From Diadema setosum (Eukaryota > Echinodermata > Echinoidea > Diadematoida > Diadematidae): a DNA stretch of 64,000 nt. Positions 564 to 63,997 of this stretch are shown piece after piece. The stretch covers positions 15,102,579 to 15,166,578 of the forward strand of contig NC_092685.1 in assembly GCF_964275005.1 (NCBI RefSeq), read 5' to 3'. Both the position numbers and the translations under genes were made by a program. The notes beneath the pieces were generated by a model. The model had not been told where the DNA came from and did no database searches. It worked only from the letters and a program-made list of their open reading frames with translations. Position 1 is the first letter of the stretch; every line of letters begins with the position of its first letter.

Positions 564-635
564 AGACGTGTCTGGAACAAACGTGCAGTACATTCCAGAG
601 GGTGCTTTCTCACACATGGCAAATTTGCGAGAGCT
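564..635 (+). CDS. Gene 1 exon: leucine-rich repeat
   Basis: This is a 72 bp exon in phase 2 at both ends, between a CAG acceptor and a GTGAGT donor. It encodes one LRR of form DVSGTNVQYIPEGAF..MANLREL, which fits the LxxLxLxxNxLxxIPxxxF pattern of LGR-type receptors. Each LRR exon of this length codes for exactly one 24-residue repeat. Confidence 0.85.
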
Positions 636-4342: not shown

Positions 4343-4392
<50 letters not shown>

Positions 4393-6008: not shown

Positions 6009-6046
<38 letters not shown>

Positions 6047-7299: not shown

Positions 7300-7334
<35 letters not shown>

Positions 7335-16612: not shown

Positions 16613-16673
16613 ATGGCCAACCATAAAATTGGCCCATTACTCATGATCACGAAAGTTTACTTGTTGTCATTCG
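16613..16673 (+). CDS. Gene 2 exon 1: signal peptide (proposed start)
   Basis: ATG at 16613 has a near-ideal context (A at -3, G at +4). It opens [20 protein letters not shown] and the exon ends in phase 1 at a strong GTAAGT donor. The spliced continuation at 20310 adds [13 protein letters not shown], giving a typical short basic start and a hydrophobic core of about 17 residues. The phase matches the SRCR exon exactly. A non-coding 5' exon further upstream cannot be excluded. Confidence 0.6.
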
Positions 16674-18000: not shown

Positions 18001-18050
<50 letters not shown>

Positions 18051-21000
18051 AGGATGAGATTACAATATATACTAAGAACGCTTTTCTTCTAGAGTGCCTT
18101 CAAATAATAGAATATAAAAGTGCCATAGCAGCATTCTCTCGTCATTCTAAATATCTTTACCAAAGATTATATGAGGTTTTTCTAAATTGTCACTTGAGAT
18201 GTGGGCTATTTTGAGGGAATATTTGAAATAAAATGTGTCAAAGCAGAATGGTCGAGGGAAGTATAGTTTGCAGAAACTGCAGTAAATTCAGTATCAACTG
18301 CATTAGCTCAAAAGGCATTTTTCGGATACAAAACAATAATATAGTTTATGACTCGGCAATAACACGTATTTAAGAATAGGAGACCACTAAATGGTACGGT
18401 CTATTCCAAGGGTGCATTAAAATCGTCTAACAATCAACATCTTTTGCATGACGCATTTAATGGTTATTAATATTAGTGAGAATTTGGATTCAAAGATAAC
18501 GCACGGAGGTCGAGGTGAAACCAGAGTACAACAAAGTGGGTCGTTAGTGACTACACATTATTTTCCATTTTGTGTTTATGCTTAAAAAAAAAACACGCTC
18601 TGAGAAATAAGCTAAGGCAATACCTTTCTCTTTGGAATCTCATTTAAAGTGTGTTCACTTCCAACCGAAATACGACATTTTGCAATTATCTACAACTTTA
18701 AAGCCGGAAGAGAGTATTAAATCCTGTGGGATAAGGTAAAGGGCTATCACGTCATCTTGCACATGTCCATGATAAATTATTCTTGTTAGAAATTTATGCA
18801 AAAAAAAAAACCAAAACACACACACACTTTATCATAGGTCACTGATACAATCATGTAAACACCAACGTTTTGAAGACATCCCAGGAAAATATTCCCCGCC
18901 TAAATTCTGATGAACGTAACCCCAAAGGTCGCATCTCTCCGCCGATACAAACTCTGGTTGTCACCATCGGCCACTTCTCAGTTTAGAAGGAATTTCTGAG
19001 CCCGATGTCCAAGATACAAACTTGCGCATTTGAGCCTTACCTTATGATTTCTCGGAAACAACCACCTGCTCGTATCTCAGTTTGAATGGCTGTAAACTCA
19101 TTCTGGCCCACAGTGCGACATGGGTCTTACTGTTGACCATAGAATGATGTCAAAAGTTTAATAATCAGTTTAATGGAAGAAACATGCCATTAAACGCAGA
19201 GTGGTGAAGATGTACTATGACTGATTTTCAATCAATTGTCCCCTCCCCGTTAGAAAAAAAAAATTAATTGCAGCTGCTGGTAATACATTTAAACAAACAT
19301 GTCGGGGGAAAAAAGTTCCAATGGTTGTGAACTCATTCCGGCCCACAGTACGAGAGGTGAAGATGTGCCATGGTTGATGTTCTATCAATTGTCTCCTCCC
19401 CGTAAAAAAAGTATAAATACTCTTTGTATGATTGCAGCTGCTGATATCTATTTAAACCACCATATAGAGAAAAAAAAAAACCCGATAAAATTCGAACCTG
19501 TCATCTACTGGTTTCTTTGCCGCGACACTACCACCATGCTGTCCCTGGTCGGTTGCAGTGACACGATGAACTTGAATCCAACACCCAGGCTCTGAAATTC
19601 CAACATTCTGAAATGTACAATACAAGGCTTTCTGAGTGCAAAAATTGGAAATTGTTAATGTAGAGGGGTGAGGATGTGCTTTGACTGATTTCTGTATTCA
19701 ATTCGCGCAATCTTTGGACCTACAAATGGAATTGTAAGATTGTAACCGGTGATCTACTTTTTGACAAACATGTCGAGGAAAGAAACAACAACCCGGAAAG
19801 CAGTAGATGACAGGAACTTTAATCCTATACTGGGTTTTTTCTAAATGTTTATTAAAATGTAGATAAGCAATTGCAATTTTACATATTAATTTGTCCAGTG
19901 GGTGATAAAGGAAAAATCAGCAATCATCAGGATCACTTAATCTTTGATTTATATCAAGTATCTATGTATACCAATGCATTTACATTTGTGAAAATTGTAA
20001 TTTTTATTCTAATTATGGTGTGAAATACAATGCTGTCTTTGAAATATTTTGTACAAACGTGTAACAAACTCAATAACAATATTTCTCGAAAATTTGAAAA
20101 TGCTCAACCGTCGTCATATTTCAATACAAAGTATATCAACTTTACATCTGCGGAAAGCCATAGAGAAAGTAGCCGGTACAGCCCTCGACTCGTTAATGAG
20201 GGTGAATTATTGAATATATCTGACACGATAAAAGAATGGCTCTTCTCAGAAAGTTCTTCATTGTTTATTATGTTCTTTTTTTAATCTCATTTTTTGTAAA
20301 ATATTTCAGCGTTGTTAGCGAACGGTTTGCTACCAATAAGGGACAACGAGGCATCCATTTCTAAGCCCGACATTCGATTGGTGAACGGAAACACGCCCTT
20401 TGAAGGTCGTGTGGAGCTCTTCCAAGATGGACAGTGGGCGACCGTGTGCGATGACTTCTGGGGGCTGGACGATGGCAGAGTCGTCTGCCGAATGCTGGGC
20501 TTCCCGGATGTCACAGACGTGTTTTTGTCAGCGTATTTTGGCCAAGGATCCGGGGAGATCGTTCTTGATGATGTCGACTGCCTCGGAAATGAAGAGCACA
20601 TAATACATGACTGCGACCACGAACCGATATTCAAACACAATTGTTGGCACTCAGAAGATGCCGGTGTACGATGCTCACCAGGCAAGCATTTCCTTTTCAT
20701 GTAATGTATTCTTTATGTAATTTTTGTGTGTGACACTTAATATACTTTAGTGGCTGTTGGAATGTGCCTGAACTCAGTTTCCCCCGTCTTTAGTGACAAA
20801 ATTAAAGGATAGACATACCAGTCGCTTACAGTCATTGGCGCTCAAATTAAAAACTACGCCGGTCTCCCCTAATTCTTCTAGTCACCATCGGAGGCATCTT
20901 ATGAGAAGATGCGATGCCATTAGAGCCCATCGTGGAGAGTCGAATGAAAATTTAATCGATATGTATATGTGTAGGAGAATCTTTTTTTTTTCCTTCTTTT

Positions 21001-24000
21001 TTTTTTTGCCCTGTCTGTGCTAAGTTAAAATTTCCTTCTCGCAGACATTCTCAAATTTAGGGTTTGGATTTTTTTTTTTTTGTGTGTGTGTATGAGTCTC
21101 TTTGTTTGGGCAGAAAATGGAGTATGAATTTTCATCTACAGCAGTATAAATCACTATTTCATTTTACCCTATAAAAGCTAATTTAAGGAATTCTGTTTAC
21201 TATGGTCGGTGCCTGCTTGGCAGATGGTCGGCAAACTATTTTCAATTGGACGACAGCTGACTGGCAACCGGAAGGTCTTCTTGTAAAGGCCAGTTATCGC
21301 TGAATCATACCCTAAAGGGTCGGTTTCCAATGTGCGATCGGTTACCTGCCTTGCTTGGTTGGCAAAAGGATTTCGATGCAGAGTCGAAACCCGGGGTCAA
21401 AACCCGGGGTCAAAACCCGGGGTCGAAACTCGGGGTCAAAACCCGGGGCCGAAACCCTCTATGCTATATAAGCAAAACTTGTGGCTTGTCGGCTGCCGAA
21501 CAGTGAACAACTGTGCCAACTTCAGAAAGCCTCTTTCGCAACATTTGACTACTAACTACCAGCAGTAGTTTCAGAGGGTGTGGAACGATCGGATCAAGTG
21601 TGACCGGGGCCTTAGCATAAGATTAACGAATCAGTTCGCAGACCAAACTCTGAAACTCTGCCAGCAAGAATCAAAATTAAGAAGTCAGCAACAACCAATT
21701 GATTTAAATTTTCAGATCATAACACTTTTTGGGGGGAAGAAATTTTGTAGATGTGAATTTTAATCTACTGTTTTGTCATATCATGTCTTCTGCATCTATA
21801 GTCACCAATAAACCCGAGTATGTTCGTCTCAACGGGCTGAGGAACCTACGACAGGTAATGTCAAATGGTCGTGTAGAAGTGAACTTCAATGGAACGTGGG
21901 GAACAATCTGTGACGATGGGTGGGATGCGAAGGCGGCGAACGTCACGTGTCGCCAGCTTGGTTACGACGGCGCCCTCATCGCTACGGTCAGGTCGAAGTA
22001 CACCGGGTATTGCGAATCGGACACTCCTCCCGTGATCATGGACGATGTCGTCTGTGAGGGGACGGAACTCGACATCCGGAATTGCAGCTATCTCCCGCAG
22101 TCAGACAGTAATTGCAGGAATAACACGGAAAATGCCGGCGTGTCGTGCTTACCAGGTTGGCAACAGATTCCTTGCAATAAGCCAGTTCGGAGATAGCTCA
22201 TGTGCTCACGGGTACAAATGACCTTTCTTTTTTTCCTCATTTGGTTAGCCACTTCACTTGATTTAAAGCGCATAATACATCAGCTTGCCCAACTAGCAAT
22301 TCATGGAATTCGTATTCAAACAAAGAATGGACCTGCATCGACCAGGTGACCAGAATGGTTCATCAGTCAACACTCGGGGAAGCATCAATTTCATTGTTTT
22401 GTATTAAATGCGTTAACAAACTTTTTCTTTTAACATTGCCAAACACCAGGCTTGCTGTCAGGTTGATGTACTGGCAAGCACCGTCTAAAAAAGGATAAAA
22501 TGAATAATTACAACATCACAGATGCTTATCTCATTGAATATAAAAAACGACCTGTCTCTCAGTACAAATGACCTTTTTCTGCTCATGCGCAAACTGGAAC
22601 CCCGAACTGGCTTATTTGCAGGGTTTTTAAAGCAATCAACATGACCGATTGATGACAGCATACCTACAATCTCTTATCAACAATAGGCAAAAGTATGTAT
22701 AGCATTCATCATTAAAAAAAAGGGGGCAGAAGGATGAAACTTACAGCAGTTTCACACGGGTGTTACTTTGTTGTTGCCTAGATTGTTGTTTACACACTGT
22801 TGTAACACGTTTCAAGTATGTGAATAAAATAGAACCGAAAATGCCACTGAAGTATAATTCCTTTTTTTTTTCTTTGTGTGTTATGAATAGACGTGCGACT
22901 TCAAGGCATTAATGACTCAAACAGTGGTTTGGTTGAAGTCTTTTACAACGGATCCTGGGGCACTCTCTGCTTATATAATCAGGACATCGACCTGGGTGCA
23001 ACCGTATGTCGAATCTTAAATTTCCAGGGTTTTTCAGCATTTACCAAAATTGGTGAAGAGAAGATGAACCATGCGTTTTCACCCATTGACTTTTATTGCC
23101 GAGGTGGTGAAACTTCACTCTCCGATTGCCCGTTCTGCTCACTTTCGCAAGCTAAATATGAGGACAGAAATTGTTCCGTGGACGGAACAATCATTGGTAT
23201 CGAGTGCGCTTTAGGTACGTAAGTGTTTTCAGAAATCGTAATCAGAAATATATCGCCGTTTCTGACTTGATAAGGTGATCGCAGGACCACGTATAGAGGA
23301 ATAATAACGCTCGAAACACTGTAGATCTCGTTCGGGAATTGACAGGTGTTAAGTCTTTCCATCAAAATCCACAAATCATCACTGATGCTCACTTGTTGAT
23401 AGCAAAATGTCCAAGAACACTTTGGCGTGTTCACGCTTAATGACTGATTTGATTATAGGGCAGAACATACCATCTCTACGCTTCATCTGATTCCATAAAA
23501 GGTTAAAAACGCACAATCTTCAAATAATGAAAATGATCTATATGTATACTGAAAATGACACTTGAATTAATCTACTGCTTGGGATTAAGACTTCTGTTCC
23601 AGAACACACTCACAAAAAAAAAATGTCAAAATCGTAGTCCTAGGTTTTCTGGCTATGCTGCGTGATACATTGTTTTCATTGAAAATGTGCAGATAGCTCT
23701 GACCGCTGTGGTCATTACTACTTCATCTTAACTCAGATGTCCATTGTACCGCCTAAAATGGTGTGATATTACAGTATCGTCTTCTATGAAGGTCTATCAC
23801 ATGCCATCTTCTTCGCTGGAGGCATAATGCAATCTTTTCTACTTCAGAAAGAATGATCTTAATATCAATATCAATATCAATGTCAATGTCAATGTCAATA
23901 TCAATATCAATGTCAATGTCAATATCAATATCAATATCAATATCAATGTCAATATCAATATATCAATATGATTCTGTGAAAAGAACTGGTTTGATATTAA

Positions 24001-27000
24001 TCAATCAATCGGACTTACAACACAGTCATATTCTGCTCTCCTTATTATGTCAAACAGAAGTTGTACACGATTCCGACGAAGGCTCCAAGAGTTTTTACAG
24101 CATGCATTTCTACTCTCCCGTCGTGTTCAATGTCCAGTCTCGATTGTTGGGCTCTGCTGAATTTTCTTCTCCCGGAGGAGGAGACAGCGGATCGCTGCAA
24201 TTCGTATACGTCCTTCTGCTACCAAAGGCCAGCCAGTTTGTTCTCATCTTCGGAGCAAACTTTACGTCAAAAATTTCTGTTCGCATGTACAAACCAAGCA
24301 GCGTTTTCTTGAATGATGTCGATTTGGAGTACTACATTTCCGGTCGAGACATTGCAAGCGCTGTGCGTATTTGGAGCAACGAAATCTGCGTTTTAGTAAC
24401 CATTGCAGACGGAAACGAAGGCATCTTCAGCATGGACTACTCGGCAGGTATAGATATTCCTAAATGTTAGGAATATAAAATCATCAAATTGACAGAATGC
24501 ATAGGGGAAAAAAATTGTTACTACTATCATCATTACATTTACTATTGTATGTTATGATGCACTATTGTCCTAAGCTTATGTTTATTTGTAATTCCTTGTA
24601 CTTTTCGCTGAAAAGTCCTGCAAAATGTTTGAGAAATTTGATAGTCTGGTGTGCGGCTGTGTAGGGTAATACATGTATGTTCCTAATAATAGATGTTGAA
24701 GTATACATCTGTACATTATAGCAAAATGTACATTTACATATTTCGCTGTGTAGGATGTTTAACAGATATATACTGTGTAACAATATGCTGTCTGTAGGTG
24801 TAAAAACAAAACAGCTGTAAGGACCCGTATTATGTGAAATATTTAAATGCTATCATGTCTTATCCTAAATCTGTACGTTCGACTCCGAACGTGCAACTCC
24901 GAACGTACAACTCCGAACGTACAACTCCGAACAACTCCGAACAACTCCGAACAACTCCGTACAACTCCAAATAGAGTGTTCCGAGGACAGTGAGTACGAC
25001 GCCGAAGGTGAGTGATTTCTTAACTTTATAAGACCAAGATTGGGAGAGGTTTTTTTTCTCTCTTCAGCTCATCTTATGGTCCCAGTAAAGAACAGCAAAT
25101 ATCTAAAAGAAGATTTTTTGAAGGCAGACGATTTGATAAAACTACTGTTGATGATTCATTATAACTGAGGTAAACTGAAAAAAGTATTTGGGGTAATGAT
25201 ATCAGAGGAGATTTTAAATGTAAGTTAAGAAATTAAAGTGTAAGTTTGAAACTCTTGCTTCAAACATGTTTTATAACGTAGATATGCATGGATTTTCAGA
25301 ATTGTGGAAAAAATAAACAAAATAGAAGTTTAGGGTTTAATCATTTTGAAGTGTCAGTTTGGAATTTCTAGGTGTACCGTAAGTACGCATGAACGTTCAG
25401 AATTGTGGAGAAAAATAAGAAGAAGTTTAGGGTTTCATTGTTTTTTTCTGCAGCCAATGGCAACATTTATGCCTTAGTTTAAGAAACATGAATGGATTCA
25501 AAATGAATATCTACAGAACCATTTTGTTGTCCCTGTGGAACACCATGTCAGATTACATGCCATTGAAACTTTTTTTTTATGCGCATTTGTCTAATGCCAT
25601 AAATTTGCATATAGAATAATCTTACTGCTTTGTTCTATCAATGACATCATCTCAAACTATAACTTCAGCTATAGATAAACACTTTCCTCGCATGATTTGC
25701 ATGAAAGTCTTATTACAGGATGCATCAGTGACGCGTTCTACAGGTCAAAAACCCCTGTCACAGAAAGGTGAGGTATTGATTTTAGAAGGAAAAAAACAAA
25801 CAAACTTAAAACAATAAGTAAGGGAACAAATGGAAATTTATATATGCATCATTAAGAGTATGAAGTTATCAAGTGCATGGGAATATTGTTGACTTATATA
25901 TGTTTAGTCTTTATGAGTACAGAGTCTACTAAAGACTTAATTAATGATTTGTTGTGTTTTGATTTTTTTTTTTTTTTGGTTTGGTAAAGACTTTTCTCAT
26001 AATATCTTACATAATACAAAAGGTACCCCTCTGACGTAGCTGGAAGATTATCTATGATAACTATTTTTGATAATACATATAATTCATGCATTGAGTGATT
26101 GTAACCTTCTCATCAGTGCTTTCACGCTTTATGAACGGTATAAGACCCCGTTTACAGTGCGGGGCTGGGCCGAGCCGCGGCCGAGCCGCGGCCGAGCCCA
26201 GCCTCAATTGCGAGGCCGGGCCCCGCAATTTTGTCCGTTTACACTGCCGGGCTCGGCCGCGCTTTTGATTCAAACCTTTCAATATTTTGTCGTAGTGGCG
26301 CTCTGCTTGTAAATAAATGCAATTTGGTATTGTCTGGTTTTCAGACCCTTTGCCAAATGAATTCCGTGGCGACGAAGTCGCCGTTCGGGCAAAGGCCTTT
26401 GCCGAAGGAAAGAATCCTTTGCAGGACAAAACCACCTTAAACTATACTAGTTTTCGACGTTGAGGGGGTTAATATCCTGAATAGCGAAAGATACAGGCAG
26501 AGGGTTTGGAAGCCAGACTAAAATTGGCCGCGCAATTGGCCGCGCATTTGGCCCAGTTTGCGTTTACACTTTGACCCCGTTTACAGTGCGGATTCCGGAT
26601 TCGGCCGCGGCCGAATCCGGCCTCAATTGCGCAGCCGAGCCTCGCAATTTTGTCCGTTTACACTGCTGGGCTCGGCCGCGCTTTTGATTCAAACCTTCAA
26701 AAATGCGAGGCCAATTTTGGCCTCGCATTTGGCCTTTTGCGCGTTTACACTGAAGCGGGGCTGGGCACGGCCGCGGCCGAGCCTCGCACTGTATACGGGG
26801 TTTAAGACCCCGTTTACAGTGCGAGGCTCGGCCGCGGCTCGGCCGCGGCCGTGCCCAGCCCCGCTTCAGTGTAAACGCACAAAAGGCCAAATGCGAGGCC
26901 AAAATTGGCCTCGCATTTGGCCTCGCTCTGGAGGTGGTCTCGGCCGCGGCCGAGCCGCGGCCGAGCCCGGCCTTTTCTTGGTGTAAACGCAAACTGGGCC

Positions 27001-33000: not shown

Positions 33001-36000
33001 TTCAGAATTTTATCACCATTACGGGGGATTCATGATCACACTATTCCGTCTTGACCCCCCCCCCCCCCCACTTTTTTTTTTTTTTTTTTTGTCTGATGAC
33101 GCTATGGGCGTCTCGTTCCTTTCGATGTCCTTCTGTCAACATGGTCAAGGCGGTGTCCGGTATAATGACTTTTAGAATTCATGAGAAGTCATTTGCAATT
33201 TTAGTTCCTGCGGTCTGAAGAAGTTAAGTGATGGGTGCCAATGGTGATACAATGTCGTGTTAAAATGCACAGTTGTTTTGATTGATAAAACAAGACTTGA
33301 CCGGAATTCATGACTATGTAACCAAAGGAGTTAACCTCTATGCAGCTTACGGAGATGGCAAACTCACTGAGTTTTAATTGTCTCGATGTACTGCGTTAAA
33401 TGGGAAGAACACAAAATTGGCATCCGCGTTGCTTTCGGAAATATACGTTCAGAGCAAATCTCCGCAAATAAACAATTTTTTTTTCTCAAACTTCTCCTTT
33501 TTCTAACAGCAACTGATTCTATGGTTCAGCATTTGGCATCGGATTAGGGACGTACCTGTTACCGACATCAAGTGTGGCGGATGTGACGTGGACACCATAG
33601 GCTTATCGGGGCTGGATGTTGCTGACAGTGCCGGTTCGACTGGGTGCCTCTTCCCTTTCCAGTCTGGTAAAATTTGTATTTGGGGCTTTCTTCTCTTGCT
33701 TTTTTCAATTAGGGAATTCATGCAAGCGCAAATCAAGAGTAGGATCTGACAAACGTTACGTGATGGATAATGCCACTTAAGGTCTGCAAAAACGTGGAGA
33801 AGCAAACCAAGTAACCTACCGCACGTCTTTCTCGTTTGCTCTACATAAATAGCTTTGCAGCCTTATTTTCAAATCAACGAGCACACGAGTAGCCTTTAAA
33901 AGTGCGATCAAGCCATAACTTGAACAGTTATGAATGGCATCAGGAATAAATAACGATTCAAGTAATTACCGGATTCATATCAATATCGCTGATAGAAATA
34001 TATTCGATATTAGTTCTTTCAAAATGATTACCGTACCTTGAAGGAGTGTAACAAAAATGAAATCGTATTGCATAATGTTGGTATCACATGTTGTACTAAT
34101 ACAATCGCCAAATCGAAGTGGGTTGGACAGACATATCAGAATACGATGAGTAACAACACAACAAGAAGCATTTAATGAAATAATGCTATGATGCTAGTCT
34201 TCCTGAAAGTTGTTAATGATTCAAGAGTCGTATCTGCAACATCAGCAGAAAGAAGAAAAATCGTAAAGTTTGCACTTGCGTTGTGTTTTAGTGTATAAAT
34301 CAATATGTTGGGAAAGAAATGACACCATCCTATCCTTTCACCTTTCACCTATCCTTTCCACGTGGCGTCTGTATTTCGTCCCGATTTAGGGAGCATTTCA
34401 TCACCATGGATACAGGCATCTTTCCATCGGCGAGTATATATCAATGCTGTTCTCGTGGCATTTGGCTTATCCAGCGACCTGCGGGAATTCCAATATGATT
34501 ACAGTAAGGACGACCCAAACTGCGAAGTTTATTACCGCAGCGTCACGGCGACCAACGCTGACGACTTCACATTTTCGGGTCGCATAGAAATAATCGTGAG
34601 TGTTCGGATAAAACATACTGCACGCTGAAGCAGGAAACGTCCAGATTTAAACCCACAGTTTTATTTCGTACAGAACATTGTTGTCATCACCAGGAAATAG
34701 CACTTAACCCAATGCGATGCTGTGGATTTGAAAAGTCTTAAAAACGTAAAAAGGAACTGAGTTTGTAATCGCGGTTACGATCATTGCGGTCGAAAATATC
34801 CTTAAGTCACGTTAATGTTCTGTCAATGCTTCTGAACAAACTCAAGTTAACGGCGTCCTGAGTACATTCTCATATTTGCATGCAATCCTGTCGATGCGGT
34901 ATATACGACTATATAAACATACTACACAATTCTATATTATTTCTACAATGCTATTCTTATATAAAGAGTTATTTCATGTTTTGTGATATCGGTATTTTAG
35001 ACCTCACTGCGTGCAGCACATATTGTAAATTCGTAGGATGAGAAAGTGGTTATGTTTTTCTCCAGTATTTTTTTTTTCATGTTTAAGGCCTTTGTGAATT
35101 CATATCAGAAGTCCAAATCGCCTTAAAGGGCAATCTGGATTCAGAAACGTATTGTAATTTTCCCTCCATCAGGCGAACAACCCTGTACCATCAAATATGG
35201 TGGAGTTACCAACCAGGGTGCTTACCACCGCACTGAAGTTAAGTTTTCCAGACTACGAGCATCCAATTCGGTTGTCATTTGACGCGTTTGGAACCTACAC
35301 TGAAGGTTAGTTACGTTAGTTATATCTATTATGGTATAAACGCCTTGTTAGCCGATAGCAACTTCACAGAGTCGGTTAACGCGTGACACATACAGAACCA
35401 TTTCTTCTGCTGTAGGGCCTACTCACAAACAAACACTTACATACACACAAACGAATCCCACGTTGCATCATGAATTTTATTCTGAGAAGATGAAAGTATG
35501 AACCCCTGTAGACGGGTTGAGTGTTACACAACATCCTTCTTAATCAAATTCATGAAATTCTTCCGTCCATGATTTTTTTATCATGACTACTACTAAAACA
35601 CTGATCAATTCAGTCGTTATTACGTCGATGTAGGACAATTTTTCAATCAGTTGCATCCTTCTTAATGTCTTGGTGTTTGGTTGTACATAATTGATGATGA
35701 TTTATTTCATGCCCTTCTGGATGATATTGTTCTACTGGGGCCTTGCACCAGAATACTGCAGGAGCGCAGGGGAGTATTTCAAGGGGCAGTGCTACGAGCT
35801 GGAAAAAGGCGCCGGTGAGATGTGCGATCACTACACGGAACCTGGGTATCACTTGGCGTTCCTGAAGACCACTTCACAAATATCCTATGCCAGGCAGCTT
35901 GCTCTCATCTCAGCAGCTTTTCGAGATCCTATAATCATAGGACTGCAAAATGTCGATAATCGGTAGGCAAATCAAGTATGAGATGACGTCACTAACTAAA

Positions 36001-36996: not shown

Positions 36997-37030
<34 letters not shown>

Positions 37031-40000
37031 ACCTACTTTATAAGTATCTATATCAAAGGATCTATACTTGTGAAAACATGTTTTTATAGTAGGTGCTATT
37101 TTCCTATGTTAATACAGTATATTATACCTCCATTTTTGAGTGGTCGAATTGATACCACGTGTCATTCATTATTTTACAATGTGTATTTCATTATATTCGT
37201 ATTTTGTTATAAATATACTTTATTGGCCCTCTTGCAATTCCGTGTCACCTCGGCCGTAGGATTGGGTGTATACCCATGAAGTAGCTCCGTCGTATACCCA
37301 TTCCCTAGTCTTCTGATATACCAAGAAGAGAAATTGTTTTGCCTATAGTGACGACAGGTCAGGTGACACGAATTTGAATGCTGCCAACGATATAACAGTC
37401 ATTGCCTTGTCTATCGTTGCAATTAAACACTTGGCAGTCCCTTTGGAGTTATATTTTCTTGACCGCTGTGCGCTTCGGGAAAGTTCTGATCTCTTGGGGA
37501 AATTATAACGCCCGCAGGGATGTCAAGTTTTTTTAACACCTCTAAGTAACCACAACATAATACCGTTTTTCAAGTTTTGCATTTATAACATGAAATCAAA
37601 TGGATGTATTAATTTGGGTTCATCACTCATTCAATCTAAATGAACAAATCAATTATTTTGAAATAAACAAGTTAGTGACATTCTTCTGGCGCTGGACGGC
37701 CACCAGGAAGTTGTGCTTGTTCTCTTAGACTATAGTGCGGCTTTCGATACTATCGACCATCAAATCTTGCTCCGGAGGTTGGCTGAACGCTATGGATTTG
37801 GCGGTACAGTCCTCAACTGGTTTCAGTCATACCTGGCTAACAGATCCCATGTCGTGATGATCAACGGTTCATCTTCAAGCGTTTACAGCGACGCGTGTGG
37901 TGTAGCACAGGGATCTGTAATGGGTCCACTTACCTACACACTCTATAGTGCTCCGATATATGATATTGTTAAAGCGCATGGATTGGAAGTGATGATGTAC
38001 GCTGATGACACCCAAATTTATTTGACTTTCCGATCAAGTGACAGGGCTCAATCACTTTCTCTTGTCAGTGAATGCCTTGCAGATGTCAAAGCTTGGTCTC
38101 ACGAGAACATGCTTACACTGAATGATGCAAAAACTGAAATCGTTCATTTCTCATCGCGATTTCGGCATATGCCTGAACAGTTGTCCGTTGGAGTTGGAGA
38201 TCTGGTGGTGGAAGCATCCCCATTCGGAAGGAATCTTGGTTGCATCATGGATCAACATCTCACAATGAAAGAACATGTCAGCTCTATCTGCCGTTCTGCC
38301 ATGATAGCCATCCGAAGGATAGGACAGATTAGACAGTATCTCACTACTCCAGCGACGTCGGCTTTAGTTCATGCAGGCATTTATAACCAGTAGACTTGAT
38401 AACAATAACAGCCTCTTGTTTGGACTCCCACAATCCCTGATCAGCCAACTTCAGCGAATCCAGAACACTGCAGCCAGGATTGTCCAGAGGGTTCCTAGGA
38501 AACATGATGTATCTAATACTCTTCAACAACTACACTGGTTACCCATCAATAAGCGCATTCTGTTCAAGATCCTAGTTATCACATTTAAGAGCCTTCAAGG
38601 AAAATCTCCCACATATATCTCCAGCATGATTTCTCCATATCAACCATCCCGCTCTCTACGATCAGCTGAACAGAATCTCCTAAAAGTCCCTAAGGTAGTC
38701 TCCCACACCCATGGTGACAGAGCCTTTTCAGTCGCCGCCCCTTCACTGTGGAATTCACTCCCCTTGAGCTTAAGAAATCAGCCATCCCTCAACAGTTTCA
38801 AAACTGCACTTAAGGCTTATCTTTTCCGTAATTAGTTGCTCAGGTAAATGTTACCAGCCTGTTGAGGGTATTGTGCTTTCATTGTAGTGTAAACCACCGT
38901 GTACTTATGCAATTATTATTATCATTGAAGTGATTAATTATTTGTGTTAATTGTAGTATTTTGGATCATGCAGTAGTTTATGTTTAGGTATATAGTATGT
39001 AAGCGCTTAGAGAATTTTATTGATAAGCGCTATATAAATACTGAGTTATTATTATTATTATTAAAATTTGTCTTGCAGATGTCAATGAATGTCTCGAGCC
39101 AGACGTACACATGTGTTCACACACTTGCGTCAACATGCCAGAGTCATTCTACTGTACATGTCCTTTTGGACATAGCCTAAGCAATGAGCGACAGTGTGAA
39201 GGTAAGTTTTTCTTAAAAGAAATAGCTGTGTGGCTAGCATGCAGTATCATTACATTGGGATCCATGGAAACAGATTATCGTAAGATTAATCTCAGGAATT
39301 TATATAAGAATATTGAGTTCGTGGGGTTTTTTTTTTTTTTTTTTTGGTTATTTTGTTTTCTGCTTGTAAAAATGTTCCGGATTTTTTTGCCAACAAAATT
39401 AATAGAATGTTAAATTACCTTCGGATTGTGTGCAGTACCAGCTCTGTTCAAGGCATACGGTATAAGATTGATGGGGAATTTCACAACACACACAAGTTAA
39501 TTAGCAAGTTAACAAAAGAGACATAAGTAAACTCTTTTAATGTTTAAGGAAAAGTCTAAGGAAAATCGGGGGATCCGTTCAAAAGACAATATGAAAGGAT
39601 TTTCACAAAATGTTCTAATTGAAAACAAGTATCCCATTCCCCGGACCTGCTACTGAGAGATGTTAGGTAAACCTTGTTTGCCTTGATTTCTGGAGCAGTT
39701 AGGTGGATTTTGATGTCCAAGGTTTTTCCCAGTGATAATTTCTCTATGTTGCTCTACCTTCTTTTCTGAACGAATTGTAAAAATTCATTTAGAGAGGGCG
39801 ACTCGTATAGAATCAAATAATCATAGTTACACAAAATAGTGGCTATTTTCAACATATCTTATGATTTATTTTACTGTATTTGTGAAAAAAATACTTTCAA
39901 TGTTAATGTTCTTAGTGTAAGGTGCTAACGAAGACGTGACATGTGTTTCATTACAGACGTTTGCTCAAACATTGGTTCCACTTTGTATGAAACTCGCGAA

Positions 40001-46000: not shown

Positions 46001-49000
46001 TCAATAGGGGTAAAAACCATGGCCCGAATTCACGAAGGTGGTACAATCTTTGTCCGTGGTTTGTAAGATTGTACCACCTTCGTGAATTCGGGCCCATGAG
46101 TTCAACATCTTGGTGCTTAATGCAGCATATTGTAAGATTCTTTGAACAATGTCTGCCGCTATAGATAACCATCGAATCCGATGGATCGTGTCCAGACCGA
46201 GGGATCATCTCAATTCCGAATGCAAACGCAATGTTTGGATGCGTCTCGTCTGACTTTCCACCACTAATCATCGCCAATTCTTCGAGACTGACGATGCTGG
46301 TAACAACGGGACGAGAGTTGACGGCGGTAGGCTTCCGGGCTCGCATCAAGTCCTCTGGTACGTATGGCGTTCGCCATCTCACCGTGCGTAGGAGCACATC
46401 ATGTACATACGGGTGGAGCATCATCTTTTAGTGGGTAACCGCCCATGCACCTTTATCTTCTGGTAGCTGGAACTCCTCTCAAATCTTTGGGTATGTAGAT
46501 GTCATAATCTCATGAATACCCAAATAAAAGTGAAGTAATGAAATGAATTTAAGTTTTTCTGATAATACCAGCCGAGCCAAGTGTGCGGTAATTATCCTCC
46601 CTCGAGGGTTCAGAAAAGAACATCGCATTTGATTGTGTGCACTCAGGACGAGGAGGCAATGATAATTTTAAGTGCACTCTCTGATTGTTTCTTGTTCAGA
46701 TCTACAAGGATGTGCCGTGGGCACCGACCTTTCGATCTCCACACACTGCTGCACGACTTCACCGGGCATCTTGGCCTCACGATTTTACCCCGACCCATCC
46801 CCGATCAGTGTCCTCGAGACCTGGCTCCTCATAGCGCCCCGAACGTCGTTCATCAAAATGGTTTTCCATACATTCGTCATTCCGGAGGACAGTCAGTCCA
46901 CTCTCACTGTGTATGAGATCACGGACCTTACCTCCCACATGGATGCAACAAACCCTGGACTTATCATTGCAACATTCTGCTCTACTTGCACGCTTACTGG
47001 CAATGACACATCGGTCCAAAGTGATGTCAACAAAGTGAAAATAACTCTCAACGTTGATCCTGCGGGAGGAACGTTATATCATGCAGAATACGTTTTTGTC
47101 GACGTTGCTGGTAACATCGATATCGGTGAGAATACTGTTGGTGTGTAATTGTGCAATTAAAATATCATTTATATTCAATTAGATCATATTCCATTGTTTC
47201 GCATTCCGTTACAGTTTCCGTTGCCTTGCATTACGTTTTGCTCAACGAAAGCTATATTTTCAAAGATATTCTGATGCTTGTAAATCATTATTCGATAGGA
47301 TAGTTTTCATTTGTATATGCATAAAAAACCGACAAATTGCCCAAATGCATTCCGTACCTTTGTTTGCAGAAGGGTGAACAAGTCAAATGAACATTTCAAA
47401 TGAGTAATTTTAGATTACTGCCTGCGCTCCCGAAAACGAAATAAGTGTAAAAAAAATCACAACTAAAGAAAGATATGAGTCATACATCGCATGTTGTAAA
47501 TCACTAGATCTAAACCTAATAGATGTAATGGTCAACAAAATTCCCTTGACTTGAATAAAGTATTGCTTATTATACTTCTCTTTGACTTTCACTACTTACA
47601 TTAAATTATTTGTATATTAACACTTTTTTTCTCATCAAGCAAAGTAACAATACGATAATCAGTGTTTTATAGTGGAATCAGAGTAAGGTTCTTAAGTACT
47701 TTGCATCTCGCAGAGGCCCATGCACCCCGCCAGAATGAACTGTGTCCCGATGGATGGGACGCCGACGGGGGAAACTGCTACTTCTATACGAAGATCGCAA
47801 ACAAGTCCTGGACCGACACAGTGGACTACTGCCAGTCCCACCTGCATCCGGATTCGACAATGCTAAGCATACGTAATGAAGAGGAGGCAAGCTTTATCCA
47901 CCGCAAACTCATTTCGAAGTGGGCGAAGCTCGGCGAAACGGTTTATATTGGTAACGTGTCATCAAATCAACTCCATTCTCGGGTATAATCAAGACGTATC
48001 TTTCACAGTGTACATCGATGTTCTTCTCATGCAACGATGATGATGTTAGTGACAGTGATGATGATAATAATAATGACGCAAAATAATTTTAAGACTGATT
48101 TTAAGACAGTCTGCATGCTTATACACCTTTTAGATTCAAGTCAGGTGAACACCATGCACATCCATTCAAACTTTGTACAATGTGTATAGAGAATCATGAT
48201 GACAATCATTTTGATTGCGACAAATTTGCACGCAGTGCGCTGATCAGATATCATCTTAGGAACACACTCTCAAATGCCTACATACAAAACAATTGTGGGA
48301 TGGTTTGGAACCCAGTTGGAACCTGTACTAAGTTGAAAGAACAAGACACCCCCCTTTTTATCATTATTATTTTTTTTTTTGCTCCCCACATCGCTGATGT
48401 TTACTGTATTCTGTATGTATTCTAGAGGTAATTTTGCCATATAAGAGCCAAAGGAATGTTCCATGCGACCCCGTACCCCTTGTCATTGATATACTCTAGT
48501 CTCAGTTCTAGCAATCCTAAGGAATTATTTTACGGAAGCATCCCCCCTCCTCCACTTCAAGCGGGTTTTGAGACGGCTATTATAAATATTTTCTTTTATC
48601 TATTTCAGGGCTCGGACAAAGAGATTCCGCTAGTGTCTTTAGATGGACGGACGGATCTCCGATGTCCTACACTGATTGGTATATGCCAAGAAGGTAAAAC
48701 ATTCGAATATGACGATATACCATGCTTTTTTCATGCATAAATATAGTATCAGGTTCCTGCAGGACATTGCAATATCGAGAGAAATCCGATCCCTTATTTT
48801 CACTTTTCTAGAATAAAAAAAGGATTGACTTACCTCTTTCTAGAAGCAGGATGAACATCACCCTTAACAATGTCAGTAACAAGTTGATGTCATGTATGCT
48901 TTTCACGGATAGTAAAATTTCTTGAAATTCTCCTTATGATTTCTTTATATTGTTGACCATAATGACGTCATTAACTTTAGTAGTCTTCTTATCCAGCGAT

Positions 49001-52000: not shown

Positions 52001-55000
52001 CGTAAGATATTTCGCAACTAATTTTGAAAAACTCTATATCCCATGCTTAATTTCCAATCATTTAGAAAAACAAATCTCTCATTAAGACACTTAGACATGA
52101 TCAAAAAACGATTTATAATGTGCGTAAGAAGTAGAAGTGCCACCGAGACTTTACGCTTGCCAATCATTCATAAAGGCAAGCTTGTAAAATTTAATGTCGG
52201 TCATCTCTTGAATTACATTCATTCCGATGATGCAGAGTTCGAGAGCGACTGTCCAGAAAGTCATTTTGCCTGTGCTGACTCGGGTTTATGTCTGGAGAGA
52301 TCGAAGGTGTGTGATTTGATCAATGACTGTCCAGTGTCATCCGCAGACGAATATGATTGCACTGAAGGTAAGATATTTCACAGACGAGGATGAATATATA
52401 ATTTTGATGAATTTACATGAAAAAAAAAAATATACAATACAATGTGATGCCAACCAGGTTTATGATTAACCCTTAGATTGACAATGCTATTTACTTTCCA
52501 CGGGTTCTACAGAGTTTGAATTGTGGATTGAAATTGATGACAAGTTAAATCAAACTGCAGACTAATTGGTCTTTTTTGTTATCCAGTGGCATAAAGTTAA
52601 ACATCACTCAAAACTCTGCATTTAACTTCGGATTATCTACAAACGGGATAGGAAAATAGTATCCGAAATTATATAAAACAACTTAGTAAACGAGAACAAG
52701 TTCGCACAAACTTACTCGATTTTGAGGTTTGAAGAAATTGATGTTCACAATGTGTAATCGTTATTTCATGGAAGCACAATATTCAGAATGCTTGATCAGA
52801 GAGGGCACAGCCCACAACAATCACACGTCTAGCGTCTTTGTAATGCATCTCTATGCAGAATACAGAGCCAAGGGATTCACACAGTGTTTCAGCGGGACGT
52901 GGCTCCCCGGTTCAGTCCGTTGTGATGGACTGGTGGACTGCATTGGAAATCAAAGAGAAGACGAAACAAATTGTCATGGAGGTAAAACATGACACTGTAA
53001 TGTGGTGGCGAGGGATAGATCCTAATGATTTGATTATGTTCAGAAATATTATGTACGTACATTCTTATATAACGTTATACTAAGCTCGATACTAAATTGT
53101 TCTCTTGTGACGTGGGGTAGATAATAATGATGTGATTATGTTTATAGAAATTATCATTAGTGATTATGTGTGTAGCGATTTATAAATGCAAAGATTGAGA
53201 GGGGAAAATAAGTTAATAAATTGATTTCTTCAATTTCCACGTCGACAAAGAAAAACAAAACAAGGCACACAACGTTTATCATTCATACACATAATCATGA
53301 CAGCGTATATTAAGTATGTTTCGAAATTGTCATCAAAGCGACCCAAATACTTCTTTCTCGAAAAAGTTGGGAGGTTGCATCATATTTTTAGTTTATAACG
53401 TTACCTAATTATAACTGCTATGTATTTTGTATTTTCATGTAGAATGTGTTTGTTATTGCTACAACCCTGCAGTATGAAATAGATTTTACAAATAAATAAA
53501 TACATATCAGAAAACAACCTTTCTTTTGGGTACAACTGACAGGGATTGCTTGTGTTTATTTTTTCCAAAATGTGCCATAAACTTTCTTCGTTAGATGAAT
53601 GTGGTCTGAAGCAGTTTCAATGTTTGAACAGACTGTGCATCGATGAAAACTTGGTGTGTGTCTACGATATCGATTACCTCGGTTTTGTGCAAGGTTGCCG
53701 AGATGTTTCTCATCTTAGAGGAGACATTTGTGGTAAGTTGAACGTAGTTTGCCGCCTTAATTTGTACATTCATGTATCAATAAATCCTCGCATTTTTTTC
53801 TTCAAATTTAACTACACAAGACAGGCTTGCTTTGAGATTCCCCACAACCTCACCCCCACCCCCCCCCAAAAAAAACAAGAGAGAAAAATACCCTCACCTC
53901 ATACACGCTGTTCCGATACCAGTGGAGCTGTCGCCTAGCCAAGGAAAGAATGGTACACTTCTTAACTGCATGTAAAATTATCTTTGAAGTTATTTTGTGA
54001 TGAGGCAATAATTCGAGAAGTTGAACTTATGGTTGTTGCTTCGAAGATCTACCTTGGTCATTATTATCATCTGATAATACGAACTTATTTAATTTCGGTG
54101 GGTTGACCAGCACTGCAATTTGAAAAAAAAAGTTCCTGAAATTTACCGGCATAATAATGCATATCCGTGCAGGGACTTCCTGTAAATGAGTGACCGAAAT
54201 TGAACTTCATCGGTGAAATTATTTTGGTAAGCAAGTAAGAAAAAAAAAGTCATGTCCACTGATGCTTACTAAACATTGTTTTGACTGGCAAATTCATCAC
54301 TTTGAAGCTTATATATTCCTGGGAACTTAATGTTTTGCACTATGAAGTCACTGAATACGAGGTTTGGGTGAGAGCAAAGTAATGAAACACTTATGATTCT
54401 CGAAATGGCTAAATTGCAGGTGGCAAATATCCTTCGTGATGAAACATTGTGCATCTGCAATGCGCTTTAAAGAGTATGACAGCTGACATCGAAAATACTC
54501 AGCTATTCTCATTCGTTTCATTTAATTTGACGTCAAACACGCAGAGAACTTCGAGTGTCCAGCCTATCACTACAAGTGTCCCTCCTCCTACTGTATCCCC
54601 ATGAGATTCCGATGTGATCTGACATGGGACTGTCCAAACGGCGAGGACGAAAAGGATTGTTCTGGTAAGTCTAATGTCACGCATTCGAGCTCACGGTGTA
54701 TAGAGAAATCCGTGAACAGCATGAAGCGTCCTTAACAGACCAGCTCAAAGAATACAGAGATGCCTGTGGACAGAATGAAAAGAGTATCTATTTACGACAC
54801 TTAGGAAACTCAAGACTAATAAGCCACCGGCACACTACATGATCCAATCGGTCGCACGACTGTGGAGTTGAGTTTGAGTTGAGATGAGATTATTTTATTT
54901 CACCACGGGTCGGTCACTTCAGTCATTGGCTGTTCTTCTGTGAGTCCGTATAGTTTAAAACCACACAGTTACAAAATACATCATCTTATACATAGTATAG

Positions 55001-58000
55001 GAAATGACAGAAAAAAATAAACAAGCACACACACACACACACACACATAAATAAAATATACGAAATCATGCATACATTATTTCGAAAAAGACAACAATAT
55101 AAGAATTAAAACGTCGGGAAAAAACAAGAAATGACTGACATAAAATGTTACAATTCATTGCAAACAATTGCTATCTAATTTATCTATCTTATTCTTAAAT
55201 ATAAAGAGGGATACACTTTGTTTTACATCGTCTGTTAAGTCATTCCGTAGTTTGGCACCGCAATATGTTACACTACGTTTCTAAAAATTAGGCAAGCCGG
55301 GTCATACCACCAGTCGCGCAATTCAACGCCGCACACTATGGGATCAGACTAAATAGCTGGGCTTACGACTGCACTGGCGTCAGTACATGATACTACATAC
55401 TGTAGCGTGATTAGCTGAGAGTCCGCGACCGGTCGTGAAATTCGGACATGTCAAATCTTCACGACTGGCACTGCGACCCATGTCGCATGGATGGAAATAT
55501 CAACCAGGACCAACCCTGTATACTAAAATATAAAGCGGATGAAACAATGTCCTTCGAACTTGTAAGGTTATTTCACTGCAAATTTATGGTTGATGAATAT
55601 TCAAGAGAGAGAGAGAAAAAAAGACAGTTCCGGTATTTGGATTTAAATGTTCTCATGTTATATCAAAACAGTGATATATATACTGGTGGCATTGACTTAT
55701 GCAAATAAAATAAATTGACGATAACATCGCCTCACAAGGCTCCCAATCAATCATTTGCTGTCAAAAATGTGTGATAATTTTCGATGTTTTGAAATGAAAT
55801 CAATAAGAGTATCGTATTACACTGGAATCAAATCAATGTAGGCATATATATTGTTGTGACAACCTAGTAACGTCTGCTTAAATGGAAAAATGGTTGTAGC
55901 TGGTAAATAATAGAAATATGATTTTCACCATTTATGTCAACAAATAACTGTGTTGTGAAGTCATGACGAACCATTGTATCTGATTTTTTCATGTGGTCGC
56001 AATGAATATTACACTCTTTTTTATGAAAACATGCGGAACTTCAAGATATATGTTTCTTGTGACCTACTCTTTTGAAACAGCTGGCCTTATGTTGGTTTGG
56101 TTTTACTCTTGTCAAGTCAAGTCTATTTGATTTGGAATGTCACTGCACCTGGATCCTTTTACGTATATTAACTCATAATTTCCGACGCCCTCCTAGCAAC
56201 CAATCATAGATGCCATCGAGGCGCCTTCCACTGCCGACAAAGTTTGAGATGTCTTCCACCCTCCCAGGTCTGTGATGGTGTCAGCCACTGTCCGCATGGC
56301 GACGATGAACTCTTTTGCGGTGAGCTATATACATCGACCTTATTGTTACCTTTCATTGACTATACTCTTCCAATATATTATGTCAAAGATCCCTAAATAT
56401 CGAGAAGATATCTCTTCTGTCATTATAAAGACCGTGTATCATTGAATACTTTGAATATGATGACCAGCACCGTCATTGTGTCGACTCTGGCTTATGAAGA
56501 ATGAGACAAAATGAATTGAATGTCGGAATTTTTATTCTAATAATATTGAACTAAATAATAGATTACAAACAAAGCATGGGAAGAATTATGAGAAGGGAGT
56601 CATTTCTTATTAGTAGCTACATACTATTTTGTCTTTTGTTGTTTGTGTTTTCCAGGTATGATTTGCCCGCCTGAATGCAACTGCAACGGACAGAGTGTAG
56701 AATGTTACTTTGTGTCCTCTACGGGATACATTGAGTTTCCTTCTGACGTAAAACAGATGTAAGTGGAAATTTTATCGAGGAAAACAAGAGATATATCAGT
56801 ATCTTGATGCACTCCCGTAGCACTGAGACATTTCACACTATATTAAACGGAATCTTAATTTAAAAAAAGTTTGTCTGTTATTTTCTAGTGCTAAACATTG
56901 TTAAGTAAAAAGATATATTATCTACAGCGATTCAGAAAGGTACATGTATGCAACAGTTATTCATTTGCAATAAAGTCACGCTCAACACGCCAAAAGCAAT
57001 ACATGGTGTAATATATTACACGGGATGATCAAGCGAATCAGCGCTTGAATAATGGTCACCCTATAGTGGGCTATCTATCACATGATCATGAATGAATTGT
57101 CATGAATGATGTTCCTTTCGAGGACCATTTAGTGTGATAAATAACAAATGGGGGAGGAAAAAAGGCAAATTTGGGCAGGCGATTTCGTTACCCACGCATT
57201 GTGCCCAGACTGGGGATGCACACTTACGGTTCAAACCTAGCTATGTTGCAGCAGACTCGTTGATTACTACGAAATATTTCCATTTCTGTAGCAGTTTCTT
57301 CCTGTTATCTCTAGTCTTTTTGTATCGCAATCTTTACAGATTCATTGACATTGCTACCAGCACGACTTTACTTACCGTCAGTTCGTCTCCGAATGATACG
57401 TTCGTCGGAAAAAGGGAAAATAACAATATCATTTATCTGAGGCCTTCTTCGTACTACAATCTGGTTTATCTGTAAGTACAAATTGTGCTACGAGTTTCCT
57501 CATAAATTATCCAGTGTGAGTGACTCTGCAGACAAAAAGTCAGTTCCACTCCATTCTCAAGTCCGATGTATTCACAGAGTTGAATCAACTAAACTGGATG
57601 GTGGAGGTTTTATCACGATCGAACCTTCAAAAGACACTTGTGAAACCTTCCAGTATGGAGTCACTAACAAAACAGTGACTTTGCTAAATAGTCGCGTGAT
57701 AACCATGGTAACATGGTTCCACGATTGGTGTCACACTAACCGACATGCAAACTATAATCAGACTGATGATCCTGTAATATGCCTGTGTGTGTGAGATTAT
57801 GACTTTTTATGTTAGGTGTTGAGTAGTATATTAATTATCGACAAAAATATTTCTTTCGTAGGTTTGGCCACAAAGCAATAGAAGAAGTCTGTCGATTACA
57901 GCGTTACCTCATCTTCTTATAACATGCATGATTGCACCCGCTATTACACTTCGGAGAAAACATGTGAAAATTAAGTTTTTATTTTGAAGACTTGTGTAGG

Positions 58001-61000
58001 GAAAGTCCGACTTTAATTTTTTTTTAAATTCTGTTCATTTTACTTACTCTATCGAATTGCCCTTCATGTCTGTCAAATACCTTACTTCAGTCGTCGAGTA
58101 CAGTCACCCAACTGGAAGGGTTTTACATTTAACACAGTGAGTCAGTGAGTGAACCGATACTAGAGGCAGAGAGGTGATATGTGTGTGTAACAGCGCAGGG
58201 CGAATTGCTACCATAATTATTGTCCAGTTTGAGCATTTTATCGCGATAACTGATCTTTACCGTTTTTTTAAGCATAACGCCGCAGTTTGTGTTTTACTAG
58301 TAATCAGTTATGTTCAGTGTTTCAGAGGCAGCCGTAGAATTCAATGCCTATAAAACACCTTATACCGTTTTTTTTGATCAATCTTGTGTACTGGTGTAGT
58401 ATCAGCATATACCTACCTCAATTAATTCAGATTACGAATGCTTTAACATAGGATCCTACTGCACACTATGGCATAAAAACAGTTCCTTTTTGAATTTGTT
58501 TATTCTATTATCATAACTGATTTATCATACTCGCTTGCATTGCTGTCATTTTTACTTACAAGCTATAGTAGTAATAATAGCAATTATTACCGTACCGATA
58601 TCATCATATTTTCCCAGCGATCTATCACAGACAAACTTGGAAATAATCCCTGCCGAAGTCTTCAGGAATCTACGCAATCTTAGAACACTGTGAGTATAAG
58701 CATTTTCCTGGAACTACCACAACGAGCAAAGGAAGTGATAAGCATCTTTGCTGCATTGCGTTCACTGCAGGAGCTCTTGTCCATCTCAATAGAGTCGAAG
58801 AAGGACATCATGTGCTTAGCATCCCCTTAAACATGTTTAGATTGAGTACCTATAGCCTCTTGAAGGCACTTCAATCTTTTTTTTACCTGATTCGATTAAT
58901 ACTTGAAGTAATGATGACGTCACCGGTCACCTTCGAACAGTGCCACATCTAAAAAGCCACACCAAGACAAACACAATAGAAACTCTGCACTTGGAACAGA
59001 CGGTAAAGGTAAAAAAAAAAGAAGTGAAGTTACATAATCATTATCTTCACGAGGCAATTTACGCTCTTCACGGATATACAATTTCCTTAGTTCAATTAAT
59101 TCAATGTGATTTTACATTGCGCAAGATTTCGTCAAAAACAATATGCAATATCATGAAAAGTGTCATTGAGGTGTGCTTTTCTTTGATAACTTTATTGTTT
59201 TCTTCAACAACGTAGGAACTTGTCAGGGAACAGTCTACTTTCACTAGACGCGTCCGTGTTTCTCGCCCTCCAGAATATACAGACATTGTAAGTATCCGTA
59301 TTCCATTTTATGTAAGTAGTTATTTGTTGGATGAAGTAGCACTCTATACTCCATTAACTTTTTCCCCCGCTAGCCCTCATTTTTCTATTTGTTTTTTTCT
59401 GTAGTAATTATTATTTTTCGTCAATAGTTTCTAAAGCAAGGCTCTTCGAAGAACAAAAGTGATAATTGTTTTCACTTGGGATCATGGACTCAGCCCCGTG
59501 TAATGAAATGTGGAACATTTTGTAACATAACGTATTATTTTGTACCTGATGTTTTGTGAATAAAAACAACAACAAGCAACTCACCCTCCAATACAACAAA
59601 CCATACACTCACACGCACACACACACACACACACATACACACATACAATTGTGTTCAGCGTAAAATAATATAAATAATTTATATCATGCCCTTACACCAT
59701 GTACACGTTTTTGCATAATAAGCGTATAACCTATTATGTACAAATTGGTAACCATAACTCTATGCAAAATATCAGTCAAATATGAAATCAGAAAAAGCAA
59801 AATAACTTTTCTGATTACTCACCTTTTCCGCTAAAGTGACTGCATCAAAAAGGAGTCTGCGTCTATCAGGAATCTTAATGGCCGCATAGAGAGAATTAAG
59901 ATAAGTGTTCAGCCCACGAAATTCTGAAGTTGCAACTCATGGTTAGCGGGAGCGCCAAGGTATATTGGAGAAGGACATGGATATAGGTAAAATAGAAGAT
60001 TTGTGATTCAAAACTTGCCCAATGGGTTCATCCCTAAACCCACAATGCCCTTCGGGACCAGATGGATATAGAGAACAATGGTGAGAAGAAGATTGCTAGC
60101 TATCACCTAACAAGCACCTTTGGATGATTAAGTCAGAATATTACCGTTATGATTATGACATCTAGGGATATAAGGGAAACGAATACGAAGTCAGCTGAGC
60201 CAGGGGTTTCCGAGGCGTTTACGGGTCTCCACGCAATCACCTCGCTGTAAGTATCCCCCTTTGTACTTTGAGTCATGTGGTATTATGTAAAGACACTGAG
60301 ACATCAATACTGCATTGTACACTTACTAGTAACCCATTGTACACTTCTTAGCAACCCCCTTGAACAGGTGTTGAATATTGAGACTTCTTGTGTACAAACT
60401 TGTGCAGACAATCATGATAATAACTTATTCAGTCGATGGCTTCGCAATATTTTTGTTAACTATAGGTGTAATAAAAAACCCAAATAATAAGGATATACTA
60501 TCACTAGGAACTGTATATCATTTGAAATCTCCTTTTTTTTTCTTTTATTATGTTAAGTTTGCTTTGTTGGATACTGACTGTATTCTCTTTTGTCATTGAG
60601 AAGCACTAATTCATATATAATGGAATTACATTGCGTCATGGATCAGATTATTTCCAATTGCTTAGTCTGCTTTGAGGGAGAAAGGTTTGCGGTGACACCA
60701 TGAGTATGTAGTCCTTAACCGGATCGTTGCTTGGCTGAAGAGCTTAGAAAGAGGAGAATTGAAGAGGGAAGCGACATATGGGGGTTCTAAGGAGGGCAAA
60801 AAGTGAAGAGTGGTAGACAGAATTGGGCTGGAAGTTGAAGTTGCACCAGTGGAGACGGTAGAGAAGGAAACAGAGAGAGTGGTAAGGAAGAATAGAGTGA
60901 AAATCAAGTAAGATGTTCGGACATCTTTAGGAGGAGAGAGATGAAATAGAAGGGAAGCGAAATACGGAGGAGTTGAATGTTGGAAAATCATGGAGATAAG

Positions 61001-63997: not shown

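Follow-up and report, generated by a model that had tools for sequence, protein, structure and literature searches.

Does one gene at this locus of the diadematoid sea urchin Diadema setosum place SRCR domains and a large recognition-type ectodomain on an LRR-GPCR, or do the outer modules and the receptor belong to different genes? The first-pass annotation of the window (the whole stretch of DNA analysed, 64,000 nucleotides long) had proposed a single exon chain running from SRCR, CUB-like, F5/8C, C-type lectin-like, EGF and LDLa modules into an LRR-7TM core. We built a model of this gene (gene B) by chaining exons on splice signals, codon bias and phase, and then adjusted it by eye and by homology. 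The model has 44 exons and runs on the plus strand, as had been read before, from an ATG at 16613 to a stop at 63995-63997 (Table 1); the two ends proposed earlier, 16613 and 63997, find support, the first in an exon that resembles a signal peptide and the second in a terminal exon that ends at 63997 in the model as well. All introns have an AG acceptor (43/43), 42 have a GT donor and one a GC donor; the first is the longest (3,636 bases), the next longest has 2,286 bases and the median is 700. Splice phases are compatible at 42 of the 43 junctions; the chain proposed earlier is broken at one junction, 32233 to 33510, which is out of frame. Because the exons were picked for these very features, counts of splice signals and open frames describe the model and do not prove it; they become independent evidence only where either of two public proteins, D. 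setosum P0241 or L. pictus LOC129265611 (P0001), agrees.

Table 1. Features of gene B, in positions of the window.
Feature	Position	Strand	Evidence or remark
First coding exon	16613..16673	+	signal-peptide-like, 20 protein letters; ends in phase 1; sole plus-strand match of signal-exon scan
Alternative first exon	19299..19356	+	used by public protein P0241; no apparent signal peptide
SRCR 1	20310..20681	+	Pfam E 3.2e-28; GC donor; identical in P0241
SRCR 2	21802..22155	+	Pfam E 2.5e-25; identical in P0241
SRCR 3	22891..23214	+	Pfam E 3.2e-14; identical in P0241
Domain without family match, CUB-like by eye only	24058..24447	+	identical in P0241
Two small linker exons	24975-25007 and 25708-25767	+	present in P0241
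F5/8C 1	27463-27623, 28558-28713, 29129-29267	+	Pfam 1.7e-14; P0241 and P0001
F5/8C 2	30551-30654, 31363-31485, 32086-32233	+	hhalign 99.0% to F5/8C 1; P0241
F5/8C 3, first exon	33510..33666	+	out of frame after exon ending 32233; in-frame stop 33545-33547
F5/8C 3, further exons	34390-34595, 35173-35305	+	hhalign of three-exon F5/8C 3 against F5/8C 1, 99.6%
CTLD 1	35752-35962, 36623-36792	+	Lectin_C 0.012 (below cut-off); hhalign 98.4% to CTLD 3
EGF, calcium-binding type	39079..39201	+	EGF_CA 3.5e-6
CTLD 2, degenerate	39957-40126, 42369-42495	+	hhalign 61.8% over 29 columns to CTLD 3, 0.2% to CTLD 1; first exon aligns to P0001
CUB 1	42748-42901, 43494-43717	+	CUB 0.0074 (below cut-off); hhalign 97.4% to CUB 2
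CUB 2	44369-44541, 46165-46357	+	hhalign 98.1% to CUB 3
CUB 3	46700..47125	+	CUB 0.0016 (below cut-off)
CTLD 3	47714-47950, 48609-48693, 49341-49492	+	Lectin_C 5.1e-11; QPD and WHD motifs
Seven LDLa exons	50774-50938, 51723-51842, 52236-52367, 52859-52981, 53595-53732, 54545-54664, 56197-56319	+	Ldl_recept_a 3e-11 to 2e-4
LRR N-cap and three LRR exons	56656-56758; 58618-58689, 59216-59287, 60166-60246	+	LRR_8 2.4e-15
7TM	61270-62013, 62460-62710	+	7tm_1 3.4e-30; best PDB match RXFP1 1e-52
Cytoplasmic tail	63297-63580, 63848-63997 with stop	+	aligned tail region, terminal exon

A scan of the 64-kb window for phase-1, ATG-bearing, hydrophobic first exons (threshold 1.9) returned one plus-strand match, exon 16613-16673 with a score of 1.99, and one minus-strand match. 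As the threshold was set just under the score of this exon, the scan shows that there is no equal candidate downstream and does not establish the exon itself.

The SRCR family is very large in sea urchins, and the three domains found here open the ectodomain. The domain that follows them (exon 24058-24447) had been taken for a CUB-like module, a label that no profile tested bears out: there was no Pfam match, profile-profile probabilities reached at most 0.3% in one set of comparisons and 1.2% in another, and the single-sequence fold, all-beta with low confidence (pLDDT 46), was too weak for searching, so we did not keep the name as a firm label. At 25500-27450, after the linker exons and before F5/8C 1, both strands have open frames rich in Arg, Ala and Pro, perhaps a repeat element.

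For the middle of the ectodomain, where a Pfam scan of the model did not detect F5/8C-2, F5/8C-3, CUB-2 and CTLD-2, profiles were built for each domain from 9 to 13 relatives and compared pairwise with hhalign. F5/8C pairs matched at 97.7-99.6% probability and CUB pairs at 94.7-98.1%, with unlike domains at 1.2% or less. Taking Pfam and profile comparison together, the earlier module list holds for three SRCR, three F5/8C, the EGF, LDLa, LRR and 7TM modules and for a count of three CTLDs in which CTLD-2 is a weak candidate for a C-type-lectin-like module. The QPD and WHD motifs present in CTLD 3 are marks of calcium-dependent, galactose-type binding. The introns of this region hold several further elements: a GAG-type triplet repeat, about 760 bases long, that lies between F5/8C 1 and F5/8C 2 (29669-30429), a retroelement reverse transcriptase fragment between CTLD 1 and the EGF (37662-38835; RVT_1 1.2e-20 in 37662-38390), and a large nested inverted repeat within the CTLD 2 intron (40167-41318; arms to 152 nt, 97% complementary), which is perhaps an inserted foldback element and at which an exon of CTLD 2 may have disappeared.

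The membrane-proximal part is that of a recognisable receptor. LDLa was found in all seven of its exons at E <= 2e-4, five of the seven lying above the Pfam cut-off, and the LRR block consists of an N-cap and three repeats, whereas Lymnaea GRL101 is described with six (PMC8286064). The PDB sequences closest to the 7TM are RXFP1 (E 1e-52) and also LHCGR and TSHR, and the motifs DR, CWMP and NPYLY fall at positions (DR, CWxP, NPYLY) that are invariant in 20 relatives. Upstream on the same strand lies a tandem paralog, gene A (564-8040), with three LRR exons, 7TM exons at 5.2-6.9 kb and a tail, its 5' part being left of the window. Over 330 codons the 7TMs of A and B are 72% identical, with pN 0.18 against pS 0.73 (dS saturated), and the 7TM is therefore strongly constrained. 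The tail (63297-63997; 7771-8040 in gene A) is conserved and has no Pfam match; a profile of four tails recovered it in 20 of 96 family matches, and in 40 of 96 after one iteration, including hemichordate, scallop and coral proteins; in a few of the proteins recovered, the first stretch is not C-terminal.

We searched for relatives with the full model as query, scoring the LRR-7TM region and accepting lengths of 0.55-1.75 times the query (1457-4637 aa), which gave 124 proteins, 120 of them listed. The best of the 120 listed was P0001, with 58% identity over the LRR-7TM region. In a 34-row tree of the 7TM, made up of genes A and B and 32 of the 120 proteins listed and containing no type A, B or C1 receptors, A, B and P0001 form a clade with support of 100/99, and the order of A and B relative to P0001 has support of only 88/66. 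Adhesion GPCRs carry as hallmarks a GPS/GAIN region and 7tm_2; Pfam scans of the model pieces, read up to an E of 1, showed neither, so the protein does not classify as an Adhesion GPCR. LRR-GPCRs with multiple LDLa modules have been termed GRL101 or type C2 (Roch and Sherwood, PMC4079206; starfish relaxin paper, PMC11863921), and the features of that type are present here: a rhodopsin-type 7TM of the LGR group, LRRs in the ectodomain and multiple LDLa modules. Since the type C1 receptors of starfish are described with one or two LDLa modules (PMC11863921), seven such modules fit C2 and not C1 (RXFP1/2, LGR3/4), the class being assigned here by LDLa number.

Whether the SRCR exons belong to this receptor was approached through public proteins. 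D. setosum P0241 (819 aa) is identical to the model at 757 of 757 aligned residues and joins SRCR1-3, the exon 24058-24447 domain, F5/8C-1 and F5/8C-2, ending inside exon 33510-33666; a further 31-residue stretch of it corresponds to the two linker exons, which were added to the model afterwards. This residue-for-residue agreement from SRCR to F5/8C-2 is an independent check of the model, leaving aside the first exon and the linker exons. P0001, in turn, aligns to model residues 509-2642 in one collinear HSP at 42% identity; its own model begins inside F5/8C-1 and says nothing on the modules upstream. P0241 (SRCR to F5/8C-2) and P0001 (F5/8C-1 to tail) overlap and so jointly span the gene, which makes the single transcript proposed earlier plausible, while the frame break at which P0241 ends interrupts it.

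The break lies at exon 33510-33666, whose 157 bases are incompatible with its flanking phases. Reading on from the exon ending at 32233 yields 11 residues and then the stop at 33545-33547, the exact end of P0241, so that with all 44 exons translation stops at residue 821 and no open frame connects the signal peptide to the 7TM. The later part of the exon is open in another frame, one that is compatible with the exon that follows, and can be aligned by eye to P0001. If the exon is left out, the other 43 form a single open frame that encodes 2,628 aa, with zero phase breaks. Two donors within or directly behind the preceding exon, 32202 (score -8.4) and 32244 (-4.4), would keep the frame with the exon included; the donor at 32233 scores 0.8, no GT donor of the model scores below -2.2, and use of either alternative is unlikely. 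For the gap from 32233 to 33510, the exon-chain program had offered a small bridging exon (32298-32365), which was dropped.

The end of P0241 at 33547 is just where one would expect it if there were two neighbours, an SRCR-F5/8C protein of the 819-aa type and a GRL101-like GPCR downstream. Moreover, module borders in phase 1 are generic, so phase fit alone cannot join genes, and we did not take it to prove a single gene. On the other hand, the break sits within an F5/8C domain whose remaining exons follow it, P0001, P0007 and P0013 continue through the corresponding point as single proteins, the plus strand offers no second signal-type first exon at the scan threshold of 1.9, and the last residues of P0241 resemble, by eye, the start of the P0001 F5/8C-3 and not a new tail. 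We regard two genes as unlikely.

Somewhat less improbable, if still doubtful, is that the locus is a broken allele or a decaying gene, a former single receptor that no longer yields a full-length product, be it in this individual or in the species; the likelihood we give it partly overlaps that of the one-gene reading. The misfit of the 157-base exon with its flanking phases would be expected in such a case, and the HiFi reads on which two published D. setosum assemblies are described as built (PMC11066563, PMC13264686) make a simple base-calling slip less likely, still possible. Among the 120 listed of 124 proteins of 1457-4637 aa, moreover, the D. setosum GPCR half was absent, there was no long D. 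setosum or D. antillarum orthologue, and the nine recognised Diadema proteins all fell outside the clade of this gene. Against decay, the other 43 exons are open, albeit selected for openness, the 7TM is strongly constrained relative to gene A, and the frame is kept by dropping exon 33510-33666, as it would be by the weak donors 32202 and 32244. Taking the overlap of P0241 and P0001 together with the short introns (2,286 bases or less from the SRCR exons to the 7TM, compared with the roughly 8.6 kb that separate the last exon identified in gene A from the first of gene B), the lack of a second signal exon and the position of the break within a domain, we consider it probable that this is a single D. 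setosum gene of the GRL101 (type C2) LRR-GPCR kind, predicted to carry an SRCR front on the usual ectodomain.

How unusual would such a receptor be? The first-pass annotation had put forward three SRCR and three discoidin domains at the N-terminus as a combination not known from LRR-GPCRs and had pointed to a domain search against known LRR-GPCRs. From the 120 proteins listed we picked 20 echinoderm relatives for a domain scan, the crinoid protein P0020 being included deliberately. LDLa, 7tm_1 and LRR_8 were found in all 20, CUB in 19, F5/8C in 18, Lectin_C in 17, EGF_CA in 12, Kringle in 10 and SRCR in one. The family is therefore ordinarily equipped with discoidin, lectin, CUB and LDLa modules, present in 18, 17, 19 and 20 of these chosen relatives, and that part of the ectodomain is not new; like P0001, the proteins P0007 of D. 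setosum and P0013 of L. variegatus are collinear with the model from F5/8C-1 to the tail. The SRCR front, on the other hand, is rare: SRCR stood in the Pfam column of one of the 120 listed of 124 relatives, P0020, and SRCR together with F5/8C on an LRR-GPCR was unseen among the listed relatives. SRCR joined to the 7TM clade of this gene occurred in none of the 120 listed of 124 matches (1457-4637 aa). In the accessible parts of the open-licence PMC literature, no SRCR-bearing LRR-GPCR was found, and GRL101 and scavenger receptor cysteine-rich co-occurred in one paper, each in a row of its own in a gene table. What appears new in the predicted protein is thus an SRCR front added to a known kind of receptor, the discoidin-CUB-lectin part being already known.

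The front module varies among these echinoderm receptors. P0001, of the same clade, and other echinoderm GRL101-like LRR-GPCRs share F5/8C, CUB, CTLD and LDLa modules with the model; in P0001 no SRCR was found, in a protein model that begins within F5/8C-1, while P0007 and P0013 differ in carrying a Kringle and P0003 has several CUBs. The crinoid protein P0020 (Anneissia japonica LOC117103150; SRCR-LDLa-LRR-7TM) resembles gene B in having SRCR on an LRR-GPCR, with six SRCR stretches, but these lie between LDLa blocks, there is no F5/8C, CUB or CTLD at E 0.01, and its 7TM sits on a distant branch, so SRCR was probably gained separately there. Used on its own as query, the SRCR part matched DMBT1-like multi-SRCR proteins best, and none of the 120 listed of 872 had 7tm_1 in the Pfam column. 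Outside echinoderms, the GRL101-like receptors of the SudRes2 region of the gastropod Biomphalaria sudanica are likewise LRR-GPCRs with LDL and C-type lectin domains in a tandem cluster, and the passages of PMC12297450 that deal with them mention no SRCR, F5/8C or CUB. Amphioxus Adhesion GPCRs share the outer modules (SRCR, discoidin, CUB, Lectin C and Kringle) but belong to the Adhesion family and not to the LRR-rhodopsin type, so that such fronts are already known in another GPCR family, as described in PMC2246102.

The order of modules suggests how the receptor might work. Three SRCR domains and the exon 24058-24447 domain would sit before the usual F5/8C-CTLD-EGF-CTLD-CUB-CTLD-LDLa-LRR ectodomain; the outer modules (SRCR, F5/8C and CTLD-3) may capture polyanionic or glycan ligands of microbes, cells or matrix, and the LDLa-LRR hinge may relay this engagement to the rhodopsin-type 7TM and so to a G protein signal. 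From these module identities we infer a possible role in recognition or defence. In this haplotype, transcripts with exon 33510-33666 would yield a truncated SRCR-F5/8C-only product like the public model P0241, and transcripts without it would have the open 2,628-aa frame reaching the 7TM. We think it quite improbable that the exon serves as a switch between a soluble SRCR-F5/8C protein of opsonin-like kind and a giant pattern-recognition GPCR; if true, one gene would make both a decoy and a signalling receptor that share the same binding front.

A different role has to be weighed as well, in which GRL101 is a second receptor for insulin/IGF-like peptides and the outer modules serve adhesion only. 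The nearest solved relative of the 7TM is indeed the relaxin receptor RXFP1, and Veenstra proposes IGF as the GRL101 ligand (PMC8286064). The same paper, however, has one GRL101 orthologue per ambulacrarian species, whereas the subfamily described here has many paralogs with varied ectodomains; and in the snail, the SudRes2 region, which a GWAS ties to schistosome resistance, holds a cluster of GRL101 genes with C-type lectin domains, the validated variant being in a neighbouring non-GRL101 gene, a Zn-RING-IAP gene (PMC12297450). In starfish, enrichment of a GRL101-like gene in the sensory tentacles relative to the tube feet has been reported (PMC6267866). We view a hormone-type receptor as a tentative and rather unlikely alternative to one for recognition or defence.

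Among the sequences searched, the gene has been seen in part, as the SRCR-F5/8C half that is P0241. If the full-length protein is made, it would place SRCR recognition modules directly on a G-protein-coupled receptor. Together with the snail resistance region, a full-length product would suggest that type C2 LRR-GPCRs are a little-studied class of invertebrate recognition receptors, one in which, if this is true, the front module (Kringle, CUB or SRCR) is swapped on a conserved LDLa-LRR-7TM base.
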